A stretch of DNA of 64,000 nucleotides from Chamaelirium japonicum (lineage: Eukaryota > Streptophyta > Magnoliopsida > Liliales > Melanthiaceae), in NCBI GenBank assembly GCA_947650365.1, contig OX393549.1, forward strand, positions 20,884,572 to 20,948,571, read 5' to 3'. The translations under genes and the position numbers were made by a program. The notes beneath the pieces are model-generated. The model saw only the letters and a list, made by a program, of their open reading frames with translations. It did not search any database and had not been told where the DNA came from. Positions 1,721 through 63,601 of this stretch are shown here, piece by piece. How positions within the stretch are numbered: position 1 is the first letter of the stretch; every line of letters starts with the position of its first letter.

Positions 1721-4700
1721 TCAATAAGTCGAGCTTAAATCCCGAAGACGTTGCATAAGTTCCTCTCGTGCGCCATCAATAGCTAAGACAGAAGATGCCC
1801 CAGCTTCTTCTTGGCCCTTGAGTTCGGTCAGTTCCTTCTCTTTTTCAGTCTTTTGTGCCTTCAGGGAGTTGAGGTAATCATGCTGTAAAGTCACGGCATC
1901 AGAAGCTGCAGCCAAACGATTTTCGCAAGAAATAACCACCGATTTAGCATCCTCCAAAGCTAAACAAGCAGCAGTTTCCTCTGAGTTTGCGGCTGACAGT
2001 ACAGAATCACCCTCGTTCAAGAACTGGGAGAACGACTTCAAAGTCTCTTCTATCTTCGCTATATGGTCCGGACTAACATTGGCCTTTTCTTTGACAAACG
2101 ATGAACGTCGGTTATGATAAGCACGACTGTTTTGAAGAAGTGATTCGATCCTTTCAACAAAGACAAAATCGTTCACTCCGAATTTTCGAAGACGATCACA
2201 AAAGATGGCACCCATATTGGTCCACAACTTCTCTAATGCTGAGAATCCCGCTTGATGAAAGGGCTTCAGTGAGCAGTCTATGAATGACCTGCAGGGAACC
2301 AGCATGATAGCAGCCAAAGAACGGTCCATCTCCTCAACTGAACCATGCATGAATCCAGTTGCCTCAGACATAGCTGGATCATCCCAGCAATCGATCTCGG
2401 CTTCTTGAAAACAGGGACCCCGGCCTGAGCTTTCTGACATACCAAAGAAGATTGAACTTCATAATCTACTGGTGTTGTGGAAGGACCTGCAAGTTCCTCA
2501 AACATAGAGTCACCCACTATTTTTTCTGTGGCCATTTCAACGGTTACTGATGCCTCGTGATTTTTTCCAACACCCTCATCTTGCAAATCCTGAAAAAAGG
2601 GGTATGTCGCTTCAAAGGCATCATCCTCTTGCCAATCACTTCAGTTAGATCATCATTAGGAATGCAAAGGCCGCCAGCAGAATACCCTATACAACAAAGC
2701 AATAGGGTAAAACATATAGTAATCATTAGTATTCAAAGATTACAAAAGAAACAACTTATACCTGAAGTAGTAATATCAACACCTTGAGTTGCCACATCAG
2801 GAGGAGAAGCTGCAACAAGAGCAGTCTCCAATATTTGATGCCTCGATCCGGTAGGGGACGTCGCAAGAGGATTAATGATCTCCCGAATAGAAGAACTATC
2901 CTCTGATGTTCTCGCCCTCTTCCTGGCACCTCTTTCATCTCCTTGTCGCTCAGAAGGTACGGCTGGAAGAACAGGACGCTCAGAAGTGCCCAAACAAGAA
3001 GACTCAACCTCTTTGTCAGATTCTGTTCGGCGATGGCACGCTCGTGAAGAACCAGGACGAGAGTTCTTTTGGAATCGAATCTCCGTCCTATCTCTCATAC
3101 CTTCATCTTTTTTAAATTCAAACGAGTTTTTCTCACTTGATTTCAGCATAGAAGCAGGATACATAGCTAATCGATTCTTGATTCCCCCTCTTACTAAACT
3201 TGAATATGCTGAAGATACGCAGTCTCTGAGGTTTACTTCTCGTAACGGGAGAGCAAAACTAACTCCAGTATGCCTCTCACTGAATGCTAACCAATAACCA
3301 AACGCCAACTGTGGAGACACTTCTTCCTTATAAGGGATATGTGTTCCAGGTATCGTTTGTATAAAACCTTATTGACGAGAAAACCGATGAGGACTATATT
3401 GTGCTATCTGTACCGTATTACCCCGACGGAATACAAGAAACCCTGGTTTACAGCTCAACATTACGAGGAAGATAGAGTATGGCATCTTGGCATTATCATA
3501 AAAAATGCCCTTTTCTCTATCAGGGATCGGCTTCCAAACTTCATGAGCAAAACGAAAATCAGCTTCTCCTATAGTACGAAGAATCATTCTAGCGTCTTGA
3601 GCTGACCCTTGACCCTTCCCAAGGCTGATAAGCTGCCAGAGCACCAGATACTGTTATGAGGAAAGGGAATCTCCTTTGCCGAAGATTCTTGGCAAATATC
3701 TCTCTTGGAAAGTGAAGTCCGATCCACCCATATAAGTAGTGAAGGGGACAAAAGGAACTCGCCCGACCTAGCTCACCACTGAACTTGGGGCTTGTAGACA
3801 AACTGCTGTAAGTCCGCGTCAGACCGTTGTAGAGTAAGCATAATATTGGAACAGCCAAATTGTATTCGGTACCTTTCACCATATTTACAGCTGGGATGAA
3901 AGTACCAGGACGAATCAAGTCACCACTCCAAGGCAGGGCGAACTTACAAAGAAAAAGAACAATCGCCGCAGACCTATAGACAATCTTCCCCAAAGTGCTA
4001 TTGGCTGACAATCCTAGCAAAACGTAAGGACTGTGTTTCGATCCAGAAGGTCGTTTCTCTGGAGGCATAAGACTAATTGGCCTATCAATATCTCCTGATT
4101 GGTCAAGTTTAGCTTTGGCTTTCCTTATGATATCAGTTTTCTGAGAATTAACAGCTCGAGGGTATCCACGAAACCAAAAATCAATCCAGTCACAATGCCG
4201 AACTCGGTCACTACGGCAAGATGCAACAATAATTGCAAAAGCTTTGAAAAGATAAGAAAGTGCTGAAGGAGTATATACACAGTCGAAAAGTTCAAAGAGA
4301 TTAGGGACTCTCTCTTGGTAATATTCTCCACTCATGAGACAACCTGATATCTGAAAGAAGAAAAATAAAGAAAGTAAGTCACACGTATGAATGTCGCTCA
4401 AATTCAATTTCAAGTATGAATATACCTGATAGATCTCCGACAAGGAAATCCCTATTTCCCCAATAGAAGTGAGGAATGTATTCGTTTCTGGACACCAGAG
4501 CTCACACAAAGCTCTATACATTCCATCAGGCCTACAATATTCATAACAAGCAGGCTCCAGCATAACAGATATATTTCTAGTAGCCTCTCGGCCACGCAAA
4601 GCTTCGAAGACTTCGCGCATCCATTCACCGAAACCATTGAGATACTGGACATCACCACGATCTCGTATTTCTTCCCCCCATCGAGTGAATCTTGAAGCAA

Positions 4701-5013
4701 TTTTTGAAGCAATTTGAGGAATGGGTACCATTTCAGCCGTTGTATGATGATACGGAAAAGTAAGAATCGGAGCCTTTTCAAAACGGCTAATAGGTCCAGC
4801 GCTCTTCTCAGCTCCATGACTATCGCCGTCACAACTCTCGTGCTCAACGATTCTCAAGGTAGTCAAAGAGTTTGGGCCATTCTTTTTCAGAGTTGTCCCA
4901 TGCTGCTTGACTTTTGCATGAGGGAAAACAAGATAAGTGACCCCTCGTTCTTCTTCTTCTTCTTCTAACCAACCGTCTTCTGGCATAGCAATATATTTCT
5001 CTGAAGTACTCAT
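1721..5013 (-). pseudogene. Antisense gene of the gypsy element: decayed plant-mobile-domain (PMD) protein with coiled-coil C-terminus
   Basis: It reads opposite to pol, from an ATG at 5013 down to a stop at 1721, between pol and the 3' LTR. The first block (5013-3589) contains GFGEWMREVFEALRG and GEIGISLSEIYQVYS, typical of the PMD/aminotransferase-like family. An in-frame 75-bp GT-AG intron (4425-4351) interrupts it. PMD homology continues in other frames: SYSPHRFSRQ-like sequence near 3370 ends in a premature stop where the family reads RFSRQFGF. A basic/Ser-rich linker (3320-2762), a 172-bp GT-AG intron (2761-2590), then a Glu/Lys/Ala-rich coiled coil (about 2080-1721) follow. Frameshifts near 3640 and 2440 and the stop near 3368 mean this copy is dead. 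Antisense ORFs of this kind are known from Tat-lineage elements; their function is unclear. Confidence 0.75.
4351..4425 (-). other. In-frame intron of the antisense PMD gene
   Basis: On the minus strand the sequence reads ATCAG|GTATATTC ... CTTCTTTCAG|ATATC, with a pyrimidine-rich 3' end. Its 75 nt is a multiple of three, so the raw ORF reads through it and gains a spurious insert (about 25 residues) in the PMD domain. Confidence 0.7.
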
Positions 5014-5089
5014 ACCTACACACAGAAGATTGAATTAAAAGTTAGGATACATTTTGCAAAAATTGACCACCAAAAAGCATCAAAGATCG

Positions 5090-6020
5090 AAGATCATTGC
5101 AAAGGAAGGAAAGGAGATCAAAGAACAAGCAAAAGAAAAGGACCAAGAGTATGATTACTTTGAATAGATCTGATCGTCTCCTTGCCGAAGGAATCAAGCT
5201 TGCAAGATGGTTGTTCCAAAAAACCTTGAAGTAAGGGTTTTTGACCTAGTTCCAAAGAAACCCGAAAAAAATGAGTTAGAAAAAAAAGAAAGAAACCCCG
5301 TTTTATATAAAAAAGGGGGTCAAAGGACGAGCTGTACCGTCATAAGTACCGCTGTCCTTAAAAAAAAAAAAAATGACCTGGTCAAACCTGACCGATTCGG
5401 GTAGATAAATGGTCAAAGATTATCTAGAAGTATGAAAAAAGATCCAAGAATCAAACATCATGCAAGAGATATGCAAGAAGATCAAATTTTTTTTTTTTCA
5501 AAGAAAAGGTAAAAATGAGAGCAAAAATCGTTCTTGCAAAACCTTGAACTAGGGTTTGTACAAACCTAGCCGATTCAAGCAGATAGATAGTCAAAGATCA
5601 TCTAGAAGCATGAAAGAAGATCCAAGAATCAAATATCATTCAAGAGACATGCAAGAAGATCAAAAATTCAAAAAGATAAAAGAAGAGATCAAAGATCATT
5701 CTTGCAAAACCTTGAATTAGGGTTTCGTTTTTTTTCAAAGAGGCCCGCAAATATCATTCCAAAAGGAGAAACGAAGATCAAAGAGCAAGCAAAGCAAAGG
5801 AAAAGATCAAGATCATGATTACCTTGAATGAATTTGATTGTTTTCTGGCCGAAGGAATCAAGTTTGCAAGATGGTTTTGCAAAAAACCTTGAAGTAGGGT
5901 TTTTTGACCTAGCTCCAAAGAAACACAGAAAAATAAGTTAGAAAAGGAGAGGAGACCCCTTTTTATAGAAAAAGGGGGTCAAAGGACGAGCTGTACTGCC
6001 ATCCTTAAAAAAAAAAATAT
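5090..6020. repeat. Two copies of a ~270-bp block with TATA-like motifs, upstream of the antisense gene
   Basis: The blocks at about 5090-5370 and 5755-6020 share long stretches: CCTTGCCGAAGGAATCAAGC, TTGCAAGATGGTT, AACCTTGAAGTA, GGGGGTCAAAGGACGAGCTG. Each holds an A/T-rich motif that reads as a TATA box on the minus strand (around 5300-5312 and 5965-5972), so each could be a promoter for the antisense gene. The 380-bp spacer between them holds further partial copies (TCTAGAAG...GATCCAAGAATCAAA). The promoter role is inference. Confidence 0.5.
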
Positions 6021-6169
6021 ATTTTTTTTTTGGCCGGCCCTGGAGGTTTCTGGCCGGCCCTGGTCAAACCTGGCCGGCCCTGGCAAAAAAAATCAAGGAC
6101 CGACCTTTTTCGCTTCTCGCTTGAAACGTCAATTCTTGAGGGGGCAATTTGTAGACATTGAAATATTGA

Positions 6170-7060
6170 ATCGGAAATTGGCTAAGTCTGGGACACTTTA
6201 TTTTCCTGATGACCAGGGAAATTTTTCTCTACACTCAGAAATTGACTAAGTCTGGAAAACTTTATTTCCCTGATGACCAGGGAAATTTTTCTTTCTTACA
6301 TATTTGGCTAAGTCTGGGAAACTTTATTTCCCTGATGATCAGGGAAATTTTCCTCTACACTCAGAAATTGGCTAAGTCTGGGAAGCTTTATTTCCCTGAT
6401 GACCAGGGAAATTTTCCTCTACACTCAGAAATTGGCTAAGTCTGGGACACTTTATTTCCCTGATGACCAGGGAAATTTCTCTACACTCAGAAATTGACTA
6501 AGTCTAGAAAACTTTATTTCCCTGATGACCAGGGAAATTTTTCTTCCTTACATATTTGGCTAAGTCTGTTAAACTTTATTTCCCTGATGACCAGGGAAAT
6601 TTTCCTCTACACTCAGAAATTGGCTAAGTCTGGGAAGCTTTATTTCCATGATGACCAGGGAAATTTTCCTCTACACTCAGAAATTGGCTAAGTCTGGGAC
6701 ACTTTATTTCCCTGATGACCAGGGAAATTTTTCTCTACACTCAGAAATTGACCAAGTCTGGAAAACTTTATTTCCCTGATGACCAGGGAAATTTTCCTCT
6801 ACACTCAGAAATTGGCTAAGTCTGGGAAGCTTTATTTCTCTGATGACCAGGGAAATTTTCCTCTACACTCAGAAATTGGCTAAGTCTGGGACACTTTATT
6901 TCCCTGATGACCAGGAAATTTTTTCTCTACACTCAGAAATTGACTAAGTCTGGGCAGCTTTATTTCCCTGATGACCAGGGAAATTCTGCTCTCTACATTT
7001 AAAAATTGACTAAGTCTGGAAAACTTTATTTCCCTGATGACCAGGGAAATTTTGCTTCCT
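6170..7060. repeat. Tandem subrepeat array in the gypsy LTR (about 14 copies of 62-65 bp)
   Basis: The unit contains TTTCCCTGATGACCAGGGAAA-type sequence (arms TTTCCCTG/CAGGGAAA around a 5-nt loop), then CTCTACACTCAGAAATTGGC and TAAGTCTGG. Copies start about every 62-65 bp (loop positions near 6211, 6274, 6336, 6401 and so on to 7038). Two variants alternate: CTCTACACTCAGAAATT and CTTACATATTTGG. Confidence 0.88.
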
Positions 7061-7540
7061 TACACTCTGAAATTTGACCAAGTCTGAGAGTAAGGAAAGT
7101 ACTATATCCCTATCATCCAAAGGCTATATCTAAGTCTTAGAGATGAACATCCTTCGACAAGCCGATATACAAGGCCGAAGAATAATCAAGCTTAAGCTCC
7201 TACAAATAAGCTTACGCTAGATTCGACAAACTCGTTGAATCCACCAAGTCAGAAAGGACCGGATCAAGAGTTAACTTTGTTAAAATCTGAGTCGCAGTAA
7301 GTCAACTCGGATTTTAAGACCCGAACCACAAGTCGTTTTAATCAGACCGGTTCACTCAAACTCAAAAGGATTAAACTACCAGTGGAAGTTACAAAACCAC
7401 TTGAATATGATCCTAATCATCAAGGAGTTATGTAAACCACCTGGAAGTTTCTCTAACCATCCAAGGGAAGTTATAGAAACCACCAGGAGGTTGCTTCAAC
7501 CACCCGAAGTAGTTATTCTCTACAATAACTACTTCGACCC

Positions 7541-7548
7541 TTATAAAA
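7541..7548 (+). promoter_or_regulatory. TATA box in the gypsy LTR
   Basis: TTATAAAAGGAGGG sits downstream of the U3 subrepeats and upstream of an A/G-rich leader, the normal position for the U3/R promoter of a plant Ty3/gypsy LTR. Confidence 0.55.
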
Positions 7549-8879
7549 GGAGGGACAAGAAAAGAAGAAAGGATCTTTGGCCATAGCAAGAAGAACATAC
7601 AAAGCTCCCGACTGAAGATACTTCAAAGCTCCAAGAAATCCCGGAGAAGAAGGATCGAAGATCGAAGCGAACCAAAGAAAATCAAAGACCGAAGATCGAA
7701 GAAGATGGAAAACTGAAGATTCAAGTCCAAAGCAAAACGAAGAACGAGTGAAGAACAAGTGAAGATTCAAGAAGAAGAAGAGTAAAGCAAAGCCCATAGC
7801 CGATCACGCGCAAAGCCCGGAAGGATCAAGCATCGCAACGCTCTTCTCTTTTTATTTTCTCACTTGTTGTAATCTTTGTACTTCGAAATCGAGTATCAAA
7901 GGATCAAAGACGGATTTCCCCGCAATCTCCTGATATACATATTGTACTCCGCTCCCTTGAAGCGAGTCCTTTGAAATTTGTACTTGAGTGAAAATTCAAA
8001 TCTTTGCTCATACAATCCTTCCACATGAGATTTGCTAAGGGGTTATCCAAACTTGCAATTAACGACTTCAACTTGTCGTTTCATGTCACCTTAGAAAGTT
8101 TCATGAATCTCTAAGACCAAAATGATTCGAAGCACCTAGGGTAGGGTTTCACATTTAGAGAGAGAGAGAGAGAGATCTTTTACTAGATAGTTGTACTTGA
8201 CATACCTTTAGACTGAATAAATAAATGAGATAAAAAATTCTAGCAATTTAGTGTTATACTATGAAGCACGGACACTTCACCCGCCTACCCGTACCCGTGT
8301 CGGACACGTGTCGGACACGGACACGGCTCGGACACGGCCCGGACACGTGTCCGACACAGCCCGACACGGCTCGATTGGGTTTTAAATCGATATGGGCTTC
8401 GGACACGGGCTGGACACGGGCCGGACTCGGGTTGGACACGGACGGATCGAAATGGCCTTTTTTTTAATTCTGTACCCGACCCGACCCGACCCTAAATAAA
8501 TAACCCCCACCGATCTCGGGCTGAAAGACTGAAACGGTGAAAACCCTAGCGATCGCCCCTTGCTCCGCTCTGCTCGAGATCGAGCGATCTCACCGCCCGA
8601 CCTCGCCGCTGACCTCGCCGCCGGACTCGCCGCTGAACTCGCCGCCAGACTTGGCCGCCGACCTCACCTCCGACCTCACCGCTGACCTCGCCGCCGACTG
8701 CAGGTACTCCTTTCTCCTTTTTTTTTTTTTCTTTTTGCTGATTCTCTTCCTTCTCTTCTTCCTCTTGTTTCTCTGCTCCTGCTTCATCCTCTTCTCCTTC
8801 CTCCTCTCCTGTTTATGCATTCAAAAACAAAATAAATTTTAGTTTTTTTAAGAATGTTTTTTTTTTGAAGAATTTTTGT

Positions 8880-9330
8880 TTTTGAATGCAAAAACATGAA
8901 TCAGTCACGACTGATTCCTGTTTATGCATTCAAAAACAAAAAACTGTGAGCATAATACAGTGAGCATAATACAGAGATTTTTTTTTTCTTTTTCTTGATT
9001 CTCTTCCTTCTCTTCTTCATCTCGTTCCTCTGCTCCTACTTCAACCTTTTCTTCTTCCTTCTCACCTATTTATGCATTCAAAAACAAATAAATTGTTATT
9101 TTTTTTTAAGAATGTTTTTATTTGAAGAATTTTTGTTTTTGAATGCAAAAACATGAATCAGTCATGACTCATGACTGATTCATGTTTTTGCATTCAAAAA
9201 CAAAAAACTGCGGATTTTTTTTTCTACATAAAACAGTGAGTTTTTTTTTTTTTAAGAATGTTTTTTTTTAAATTTTTTTGTTTTTTAATGCATAGTCATG
9301 AATCAGTCATTGACTGATTCATGTCATGCA
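8880..9330. repeat. Palindromic repeats in the left part of the hAT element
   Basis: Copies of ATGAATCAGTCATGAC / TGACTGATTCATG lie near 8897, 9152-9185 and 9295-9325, interspersed with AAAAACAAAAAACTG and TTTTTTTTAAGAATGTTT. They make several imperfect hairpins between the subterminal repeats and the transposase gene. Confidence 0.7.
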
Positions 9331-9669
9331 TTTAAGAACAAAAAAACTATGGACTGACTGTTTGTAGTTAATTTCTGGGCTTCATAAAAAAATATGTCTA
9401 TAGTTCTATATTGTTTGTTAAATATGTCTAATTGTCTATAGTTCTATATTGCTTGTTAATTATTTCTATAGTTCTATATTGCCGGATTCATCATTGTTTT
9501 GTTAATTACTTCTATAGTTCTATATTGCTTGTTAGTAGTTAATTCGTAGTTGACACTAGTTGTTTGTTAGTTTTGTTATTGTTAATTACATGAATTATAA
9601 TTTCTAAGTTTGCTTCATTTGTAATTGTAATGTATTGTTAATGTCAATTATGTTTGTCACGTTTTTGTA

Positions 9670-12018
9670 ATGTATAATAATAGGAAAATGGATCAAGAGA
9701 GTTTCGTATCTACCGGTGCCGGTGGTAGTAGTCATACTCCCCAAGATGAAGATCCTAGTAAGCCTCTTTGGCGGTTTGTGACAAAGATAGCAGAAAAGAA
9801 AGAAGGAGGGGGAAATATAACTTTCCGGTGCATCTTTTGTCAAACACAATTCAAGGGCTCTTATTCTAGAGTAAAGGCGCATTTGTTGAAGATAGCCGGT
9901 CATGGAATCCGGGGATGCGTGAAAGTTACATCCCAACAAATTCAAAATATGCAAAGGCTTATTGAACAAGCAGAGTTGCAGGCGAAGAATGAATTGCCCA
10001 AGCAAGTCCCTTTGCCATCTTCCGCTTCTACTCGATCTTCGGGTGCAAGTACGGGGACAGGGGCCCTAGGCATCACGTCATTTAGGCAAGAGAGTTTCGA
10101 GCCAAGGAAGAGGAAGACTGGTAGCTCCGCTTTGGAAAAAGCATGGAACATTGAGTGTCGTGATCAATTGCGAGCGGAGATTGCTAGGATGTTTTATTCG
10201 GGGGGCTTACCGTTTCATCTTGCAAGGAATCCATACTATGTGAGTTCTTATACCTTTGCTGCTAATCCCGCCAACGCGATCAGCGGCTTTGTCCCTCCTG
10301 GGTATAATATGTTGAGAACCACTTTACTTCAAAAGGAGCGAGCAAATATTGAGAAGTTGTTAGAACCAATCAAAACCACTTGGAAGGAGAAGGGAGTTAC
10401 AATTGTTTGTGATGGTTGGACGGATGCTCAAAGAAGGCCTCTTGTGAACTTCATGGCGGTGACGGAGTCCGGACCTATTTTCTTGAAAGCTATCAATTGC
10501 GAGGGAGAGTACAAGGACAAGTTCTACATTGCTAATTTAATCAAGGAGACTGTTATAGAAGTTGGGTCTCAAAATGTGGTACAAGTTATCACGGATAATG
10601 CCCCGGTGTGTAAGGCGGCGGGGATGCTTATCGAAGCACAATGGCCCCGCATCTTTTGGACTCCATGTGTGGTCCATACTCTTAATCTTGCATTGAAGAA
10701 CATATGTGCGGCGAAGAATACAGAATCCAATGAGGTCACGTATGATGAATGTAGTTGGCTAACTATCGTTGCCGGGGATGCCAGTGTTATCAAGAATTTT
10801 ATTATGAACCACTCTATGAGGCTAGCAATGTTCAATGAATTTGTGAAATTAAAGATGCTCGCAATTGCCGACACACGCTTTGCTTCTGTGGTGATCATGC
10901 TCAAGAGGTTTCATGACATAAAGCGCGGTCTCCAAAATATGGTGATTAGTGATCAATGGGATTTGTATAGAGAAGATGATGTGGGGAAAGCACAATTTGT
11001 CAAACAAAAGGTGTTGGATGACTTATGGTGGGACAAGATAGATTATATATTATCTTTCACCGAGCCCATCTATGACATGTTGAGAGTTGCCGATATGGAC
11101 AAGCCGTCTCTACATCTAGTTTATGACATGTGGGACACAATGATTGAAAAGGTCAAGGCGGCTATATATCGATATGAGAAGAAAAAGGAAGGTGAAGAAT
11201 CAAGCTTTTATGAAGTGGTCCATGATATTTTGGTTGATAGGTGGAACAAAAGCAATACTCCACTTCATTGCTTAGCGCACTCATTAAATCCAAAGTAAAG
11301 TAGTAAACTCTCTAATCTCTAATTCTCTATTTTATTGTTGATAACATCATTCAATAATTCAAATTAATTAAGCAATTTGTCTTTTACTTTCTTTAGGTAC
11401 TATAGCAAGGAGTGGCTTGAAGGGGCTTTGAATCGTGTAGCTCCTCATATGGATGTGGAGATCTCGGCCGAGAGGAACAAATGTATTAGACGATATTTTT
11501 CAAGTCCGGATGAGCGTCGGATGTTGAATGTGGAGTTTGCAAAGTTCTCGGCGGCTTTGGAAGAATTTGCGGAGTATGATTCTTTGCACGATAGGGGAGA
11601 GATGGATCCAAAGATTTGGTGGGTCGTGCATGGGGCTTCTACACCTACACTCCAAAGTTTGGCTTTCAAGCTTCTCGGGCAACCTTCTTCCTCTTCGTGT
11701 TGTGAGAGGAATTGGAGCACCTACTCGTTTATTAATTCAATGCAGAGGAATAAGATGACTCCGCAACGTGCCGAGGATCTTGTCTTTGTTCACAACAACC
11801 TTCGTCTTCTATCAAGGAGAAGCCCACAATATTTGGAGGGAGAGACGAAGATGTGGGATATTGGAGGAGATGCATTTGACTCTCTCGGGGACATTGGAGT
11901 TCTAGAGGTTGCGGAGCTTTCACTTGATGAACCCGATTTAGAGACGGTGCTTTTTACGGATGAAGGCGAAGACGAAGGAAATATTGGAGAGGACACCATC
12001 ATACTTGGGGCAAATTGA
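9670..12018 (+). CDS. hAT transposase, two exons, intact
   Basis: This DNA cut-and-paste transposase has exon 1 at 9670-11294 and exon 2 at 11397-12018, with a 102-bp GT-AG intron that splits a Lys codon (AA|G); the junction reads NPKYYSKEW. The product is 748 residues from the ATG at 9670, or 742 from the ATG at 9688, which is the more likely start. Order: an N-terminal BED zinc finger (about residues 35-80, CIFC then HLL...H), a DUF659/RNase H-like core with CDGWTD (Asp near 248) and ITDNAPVC (Asp near 309), and a C-terminal hAT dimerisation domain with the Glu of CCERNWS near 645. The C-terminus is acidic. No stop or frameshift is visible, so the protein could be active. Confidence 0.93.
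11295..11396 (+). other. Intron of the hAT transposase gene
   Basis: The donor is CCAAA|GTAAAG and the acceptor TTTCTTTAG|GTACTAT. Removal joins the two frames and restores the family sequence NPKYY. Confidence 0.85.
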
Positions 12019-12301
12019 AGATCTTTTTTCATTTGTGTTTTGGATAATATGGAAGAGGGATTATGACATTATGTTTATGTTTTTGTTTTGTAACTGTTTG
12101 TTGGATGTTGTTTATCTATTTTGGACCGTTTATGTTTTATTAGGATGCATTTGCGGAGTATGATGTTTATCTATTTTGGTTGTCTATTACTCGTTTTAGT
12201 ATGATATGTTAGATGATGTATTTTAGTTTCTACTTTCTAGCATAGTATAATATGTTAGATGGACCGTTTAGTTTTTAACGTTTTATGAATGGTTATGTCA
12301 T

Positions 12302-12302
<1 letters not shown>

Positions 12303-12354
<52 letters not shown>
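12303..12354. repeat. (TA)n microsatellite in the hAT right end
   Basis: About 25 TA units lie directly inside the subterminal repeats of the hAT. The relic end at 30189 has the same arrangement. Confidence 0.9.
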
Positions 12355-12356
<2 letters not shown>

Positions 12357-12468
12357 CCGTGTCCTAGCCGTGTCGTGTCCTACTTTTTTGAGAAAATGCC
12401 GTGTCGCCGTGTCCGTGTCGTGTCGTGTCGTGTCGCCGTGTCCGTGTCCGTGCTTCACAGGTGTTATA

Positions 12469-13327
12469 TAACTAAACCACCCCTGTGAAATATTTTATAG
12501 TTGAGTGGGAAGGGAGAAGTCACAGGCTCCACGTGAGCATGTATGGTGAAGTGACGCCCCATGCATGCCCTTTTCTTCCTTTTCTGTATGTAGCGGCCAT
12601 GCTTTTATAAAATCCCAAATAGTAAGATGTAATCCGTAGAATATAAGGATTTCAATACTATATATGGAAGAACAGCTTTAAGTCCAGAAAAATTGGATTG
12701 ACAACCACAACCCCTTTATTCCTATCCCAAAGTCTGACAAACAACTATATGAAGAGGCCGGTTTCCCTTTTTTCTTTCCCATATAATTCTCAGGTGGGGT
12801 CCATCTTAAGACTTCAGCTGTAGATTTATCGTATAACTAACTGGTGACCATCCAACCACGAATGGACCACTACAGCCTCACCTAATCTAAACCACTAGTA
12901 ACACTATTATTCAAATTAACCCCTTTATGTACCGAAAACTAAAACAATGGATCCTCTATTAAAAAAGTGTAGCAAATATAAAGACTCAAATTGAAATTCC
13001 TTGACACAATCTATACTTACACCTAACCTAAACCTATGGATTAGATCATATGTTAAGCTCACTGAAAAAGTAGACATTTATAGGAAAAAATCCAGCATGA
13101 CATTATTCTGGTCTCTTGGCCTAAAAGCTTTTTCAAAGATTGTTTCTTTAGCTAACATTATTCTTTTAATTTCTTATTTTCTTAAAAAATAGTTTTGGAA
13201 GTCTATTTGCAATTAAGCTCCCTTTTCTATTTTAATAGCCACTTTATCATATTAAGTTTATCCAATTTTTTTTAAGAAATACAGTAAAGTTGGCTGTCTG
13301 CAGTTAAGATTCTTCTAACTTTTGTAG
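12469..13327 (+). other. Host intron sequence upstream of the first visible PUS10 exon
   Basis: This is AT-rich sequence without a convincing ORF. I looked for the N-terminal CxxC part of PUS10 here and did not see it. Confidence 0.5.

Positions 13328-56206
<42,879 letters not shown>

Positions 56207-62756: not shown

Positions 62757-63601
<845 letters not shown>

Follow-up and report, generated by a model that had tools for sequence, protein, structure and literature searches.

Does the hAT transposon that lies in a 64,000-nucleotide stretch of the Chamaelirium japonicum genome represent an autonomous element that has moved recently? The stretch (contig OX393549.1, positions 20,884,572 to 20,948,571; C1:20884572-20948571 in our searches) is called the window below, and all coordinates without a contig name are counted from its first nucleotide. 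A first-pass annotation had described the element at 8259-12460 as recently active and autonomous. In our view it is probable that we are dealing with a complete hAT transposon whose family was mobile very recently, while the copy in the window is a somewhat older one, with an open frame and a protein that may or may not still be competent. The family must have moved very recently, since a pair of copies without a substitution occupies different sites, 31 copies have 31 distinct target-site duplications (TSDs), and two precise empty sites are found.

The element and its transposase

The element measures 4202 bp, and inspection of the sequence confirmed the ends described earlier, an exact 8-bp TSD and 17-bp terminal inverted repeats (TIRs) with one mismatch. 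The two TIRs agree in 16 of their 17 positions, beyond which the ends are no longer similar. The region is a complete cut-and-paste transposon of the well-known hAT kind with the following features, the basis being given in brackets:

8251..8258, no strand: left TSD, GTGTTATA (sequence)
8259..8275, + strand: left TIR, CTATGAAGCACGGACAC (sequence)
8259..8718, + strand: left end, 12 subterminal GACACG/CGTGTC hexamers (in 1000 shuffles 0.26 on average and at most 3)
8704..9683, + strand: putative intron of the 5' untranslated region, GT...AG, with a 257-bp tandem duplication inside (sequence, repeats, acceptor letters common to the sister family L045)
9688..11294, + strand: transposase exon 1, start codon to donor (sequence)
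9829..9918, + strand: BED-like finger ligands C48, C51, H65 and C77 (by eye)
10297..10716, + strand: DUF659 match, residues 204-343, holding D242 (10411-10413) and D303 (10594-10596) (Pfam, 1.8e-47)
11295..11396, + strand: coding-region intron, GT-AG, 102 bp (sequence)
11397..12018, + strand: transposase exon 2 including the stop codon (sequence)
11560..11802, + strand: Dimer_Tnp_hAT (PF05699), residues 591-671, holding E639 (11704-11706) (Pfam, 2.1e-12, above cut-off)
12304..12354, no strand: (TA)25 microsatellite (repeat search)
12311..12460, + strand: right end, 11 GACACG/CGTGTC hexamers (in 1000 shuffles 0.05 on average and at most 2)
12444..12460, - strand: right TIR, CTGTGAAGCACGGACAC (sequence)
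12461..12468, no strand: right TSD, GTGTTATA (sequence)

Counting either strand, the first 460 bp hold 12 GACACG hexamers and the last 150 bp hold 11, with none in between; the expectations in the list come from mononucleotide shuffles (n=1000). We infer that these subterminal hexamers are putative binding sites of the transposase. Allowing up to 3 mismatches, we find 6 matches to the TIR pattern in the window, compared to 0.20 expected from shuffles. Within the putative 5' intron the 257-bp tandem duplication occupies 8721-9210 with 88% matches, and 9130-9206 forms an inverted repeat whose 38-bp arms match perfectly. A literature search with the string TATGAAGCACGGAC matched no paper.

The transposase frame is open over two exons and encodes 742 amino acids from the ATG at 9688. 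The two-exon structure was thus described correctly before, but with 748 residues, a length obtained from the in-frame ATG at 9670, which probably lies inside the putative 5' intron of the window element. We prefer the start at 9688, because the acceptor-like AG/GAAAATG of the 5' intron also precedes the start codon of L045; the upstream stretch of L045, as printed, holds no in-frame ATG. The GT and AG sites of the coding intron are kept in 31 of 31 aligned copies.

Retention of the dimerisation domain, as proposed at first, agrees with the Dimer_Tnp_hAT match, which passes the Pfam cut-off. The two Asp motifs and the Glu are likewise in place, with D242 in CDGWTD, D303 in TDNA and E639 in CCERNWS; they are putatively the catalytic residues of hAT enzymes, D242 and D303 being assigned by motif. 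For the proposed BED finger the pattern C48-x2-C51, H65, C77 is recognizable by eye, but zf-BED stays under the Pfam cut-off, and a scan of the whole protein against Pfam gave no zf-BED match at E<=1.

The architecture resembles that of maize Activator (Ac), for which PMC3260210 describes a 4.6-kb element with 8-bp TSDs, short TIRs and one spliced gene for a transposase of 807 amino acids that binds repeated AAACGG hexamers near the Ac ends. The window element has in common with Ac the 8-bp TSD, the short TIRs, the single spliced gene and a hexamer repeated near both ends, yet its 17-bp TIRs, the GACACG repeat and the DUF659 match set it apart from Ac with its 11-bp TIRs and AAACGG, the likeness to Ac being one by description. 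Hermes, a housefly hAT element with solved structures, has BED fingers that read subterminal repeats, with base contacts made by S66, and produces 8-bp TSDs, as stated in PMC10368747. The C-terminal residues 609-669 of the window transposase align by sequence with Hermes (E 0.0015), including ERNWS (E639) opposite ERTFS, and the 8-bp TSDs, the putative BED finger and the subterminal repeats are further points of likeness. However, only about 60 residues are alignable, the finger loop differs in length, and the Hermes repeat is AAGT and not GACACG. By analogy with hAT biochemistry, a single gene would supply the 742-residue transposase, the N-terminal finger would read the GACACG repeats near both ends, a D-D-E site of the RNase H-like type would cut at the TIRs, and insertion would occur with an 8-bp stagger.

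Recent mobility of the family

The window's own genome (1.52 Gb) was searched for further copies. Since only 34 places were scored among 2411 first-look candidates, all copy counts are lower bounds. Copies of more than 95% identity, for which the first-pass annotation had proposed to look, are present in the genome. Among the 33 other places fetched, at least 30 are copies with both ends, 27 with perfect TSDs and 3 with one mismatch; the compound loci L019 and L025 as well as L041, for which the left end was not found, were left out of the counts. Two more family places with 89% and 93% protein identity, recovered by a search with exon 1, also stand outside them. The TSDs are all distinct in the 31 copies, window copy included; 19 of them carry T at position 2, and 17 carry A at position 7.

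Of the 31 copies, 13 have an open transposase frame. Among these 13 the pooled ratio of nonsynonymous to synonymous substitutions (dN/dS) is about 0.16, from pairs that are not independent, which suggests purifying selection between open copies. Open frames under such selection would also be expected if the transposase had become a host gene, but we give hardly any credit to this explanation: a gene of the host would be expected in single copy and without transposon ends, whereas here the TIRs, the TSD and the terminal repeats are intact and mobile copies are many.

The youngest part of the family argues for recent transposition. Copies L016 (C12) and L020 (C11), on large contigs and flanked by different TSDs, show 0 substitutions in 4132 aligned bases and 5 gap events, and L017 differs from each of them by 3 substitutions. 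Frames are open in 8 members of the ten-member youngest group.

Three copies lie on small unplaced contigs, and both of those tested for empty sites gave a precise one. L014 (C685) has its counterpart at C7:56.93 Mb, where its flanks are 99.7% and 99.0% identical and the two matched segments share exactly 8 bp. The occupied site exceeds the empty one by the element and exactly one 8-bp copy of the target. In the case of L021 (C411), which has an open frame and belongs to the youngest group, the flanks are found at C6:20.84 Mb with 98.8% and 99.5% identity, and ATGCTGGA stands only once at their junction. We infer that the empty sites represent the other haplotype. The right flank of the window copy, searched as well, occurs only once in the assembly, so that it offers no empty counterpart of this insertion.

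Near-identical copies and empty sites could also arise from assembly duplicates or segmental duplications in a family that had not been active recently. The position of three copies on small unplaced contigs would fit this, as would the similarity of a locus on C1829 to the occupied compound locus on C7 (97.7% over 7 kb). Nevertheless we regard duplication as very improbable, since the substitution-free copies are located on large contigs with TSDs that differ, no TSD is used twice among the 31 copies, and the two states of the L014 site differ by just the element and one 8-bp target copy.

The two compound loci, L019 (C7:15289919-15297920) and L025 (C1829:7112-15141), are very similar and each consist of two inverted partial copies with a common junction; they are possibly a product of aberrant transposition. 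Another copy, L011 (C8:32288264-32294423), is nested in an element with GATACG-type ends and the perfect TSD GTCTAGGG.

The copy in the window and its surroundings

The window copy is placed apart from the youngest members. In a tree built from the coding and 3' part its closest partner is L009 (99/94), joined next by L011 and L012 (97/92), the bootstrap being unsettled, and a tree of the left end unites six copies including the window copy (100/98). Its nearest fetched relative is L009, with a body difference of 1.08%, and within its group of six only the window copy has an open frame. Private to the window copy are four replacements (A7V, M264I, I358L and R652Q), four silent codon changes and 6 changes in 1097 non-coding sites (0.55%). 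At plant substitution rates of 2.6e-9 to 1.3e-8 per site and year, 0.55% would correspond to about 0.4 to 2 million years, a figure that we do not offer as a result. Taken together, the comparisons point to a somewhat older insertion, not among the youngest of the family, that has kept its frame open.

Compared to L016, the left end of the window copy is 99% identical in the first 100 bp, 73-86% between 100 and 400, 47% between 600 and 700, and 96-100% from 800 on. Slippage and misalignment are likely in this zone because of its minisatellite and low-complexity sequence, and exchange of ends between elements may also have contributed to the turnover.

One of the private replacements may bear on the function of the protein:

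11743..11745, + strand: codon 652, CAG (Gln) in the window copy only; CGG in 29 and CGA in 1 of the 30 other copies

The change to CAG occurred at a CpG, 13 residues past E639. The four sister families have R, R, K and K at this residue, and the aligned position of Hermes is K. R652Q is the best candidate for the hidden inactivating change that the first-pass annotation had listed as a ground for refutation, and because of it the window protein may or may not still work. The claim of a recently active autonomous element thus holds for the family, with its copies above 95% identity, distinct TSDs, open frames and empty sites, but less so for the window copy, which belongs to an older branch and carries R652Q.

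It is possible, though on balance doubtful, that R652Q is neutral and that the window copy has kept full competence as an autonomous element to the present. Its frame is open, the TIRs and splice sites are intact, the catalytic motifs are retained and private changes are few. Against this, Gln652 is unique where all other copies have Arg and the sister families Arg or Lys, the open frame is the sole one in its group of six, and the copy is not one of the youngest.

Several points weigh against our preferred interpretation of a recently mobile family with an older copy in the window. The N-terminal segment, scanned alone, reaches 13.7 bits for zf-BED compared to a cut-off of 20.6. The mobility of the family is read from its genomic copies and their sites. 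The empty sites may be paralogous segments and not the other haplotype. Finally, with four replacement and four silent private codons, the changes are too few to call the window copy decayed.

The host gene that was thought to adjoin the element found no support in a Pfam scan of 20 open reading frames (ORFs), in which no such gene was recognised. Of the 76 ORFs with 45 or more amino acids in 5034-8258 and 12461-16500, the scan covered 16, together with 4 further to the left; the only match above the Pfam cut-off among the 20 was a Plant mobile domain at 3592-5034 (minus strand). An ORC2-like match at 7907-8080 (minus strand) was rejected as weak (E 0.018, under the cut-off; nothing in PDB at E<=10). 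Scans of the window with Rfam, at the gathering threshold, and for tRNAs had no match.

The region looks retroelement-rich. By our reading of the ORFs, the frames at 15418-19579 are copia-like and the one at 2-592 is gypsy-like, but Pfam gave no match on the pieces 2-589 and 15418-15930 of these frames. A LINE-like element with both frames open lies at 22412-28093 (minus strand), its 1211-residue frame with endonuclease, reverse transcriptase and zf-RVT, its 681-residue frame with DUF4283 and a zinc knuckle. The gypsy-like frame is terminated by a 756-bp non-autonomous relative of the hAT element at 589-1344, which has the TIRs CTAAGAAGCACTGACAC and CTAGGAAGCATGGACAC, a perfect TSD CTTATGAC and terminal GACACG/GTGTCC repeats. 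At 30192-30208 (plus strand, TIR CTAAGAAGCACAGACAT) and 63584-63600 (minus strand, TIR CTATGAAGCACGGATAC) lie isolated ends of related elements whose repeats are of the GATACG type; for neither was a partner end with matching TSD found within the window.

Sister families and their subterminal hexamers

In the search with exon 1, 81 of 2332 candidates were scored, of which 30 show 89-100% identity and 51 only 67-74%; the matched stretch is stop-free in 31 of the latter 51. Sister-family sequences were fetched at length for L042-L045 and as left-end pieces for L048-L051. L042-L045, all from the same genome, share the gene layout of the window element, with exon 1 67-74% identical, and the left TIRs of L042, L044 and L045 retain GAAGCAC.

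The families differ in the subterminal repeat: the window family and L044 have GACACG, L043 and L045 have GATACG, and L042 has a mixture. At the left end GACACG alone occurs in L044, for which the right end was not found, and in L048, while L043 and L049 have GATACG alone. L045 holds 17 GATACG compared to 2 GACACG, and L051 mostly GATACG; mixtures are seen in L042 (18 to 8, mostly GATACG) and L050 (9 to 2). Where found, the inner part of the TIR follows the hexamer: L045 has CGGATAC at both ends, though with one deviating base on the right, L042 carries both kinds, one each, and L048 has CGGACAC.

In the putative DNA-reading helix of the finger, the window copy and L042 have Ser at residue 60, L044 has Thr, L043 Phe and L045 Tyr. 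This residue may correspond to S66 of Hermes, by counting back from the zinc-binding His rather than by structural alignment, and across finger loops of different length. The sister families could thus have switched the hexamer in concert, in the TIR and in about 20 copies per element, together with a matching change of residue 60 (Ser or Thr paired to GACACG, Phe or Tyr to GATACG). We consider such a switch unlikely as it stands. L042 has Ser60 yet mostly GATACG, L017, a young and open member of the window family, combines Phe60 with GACACG repeats, and the comparison covers five families only. With this imperfect match the hypothesis serves as a lead.

If true, it would provide a natural series of specificity switches of a transposase. 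The sister families would form natural pairs in which to follow how a hAT transposase shifts its recognition site across about 20 dispersed copies. With substitution-free copies, clean empty sites in the same assembly and numerous open transposases, the family of the window element represents a live source of new mutations and of markers and is a candidate tagging tool.

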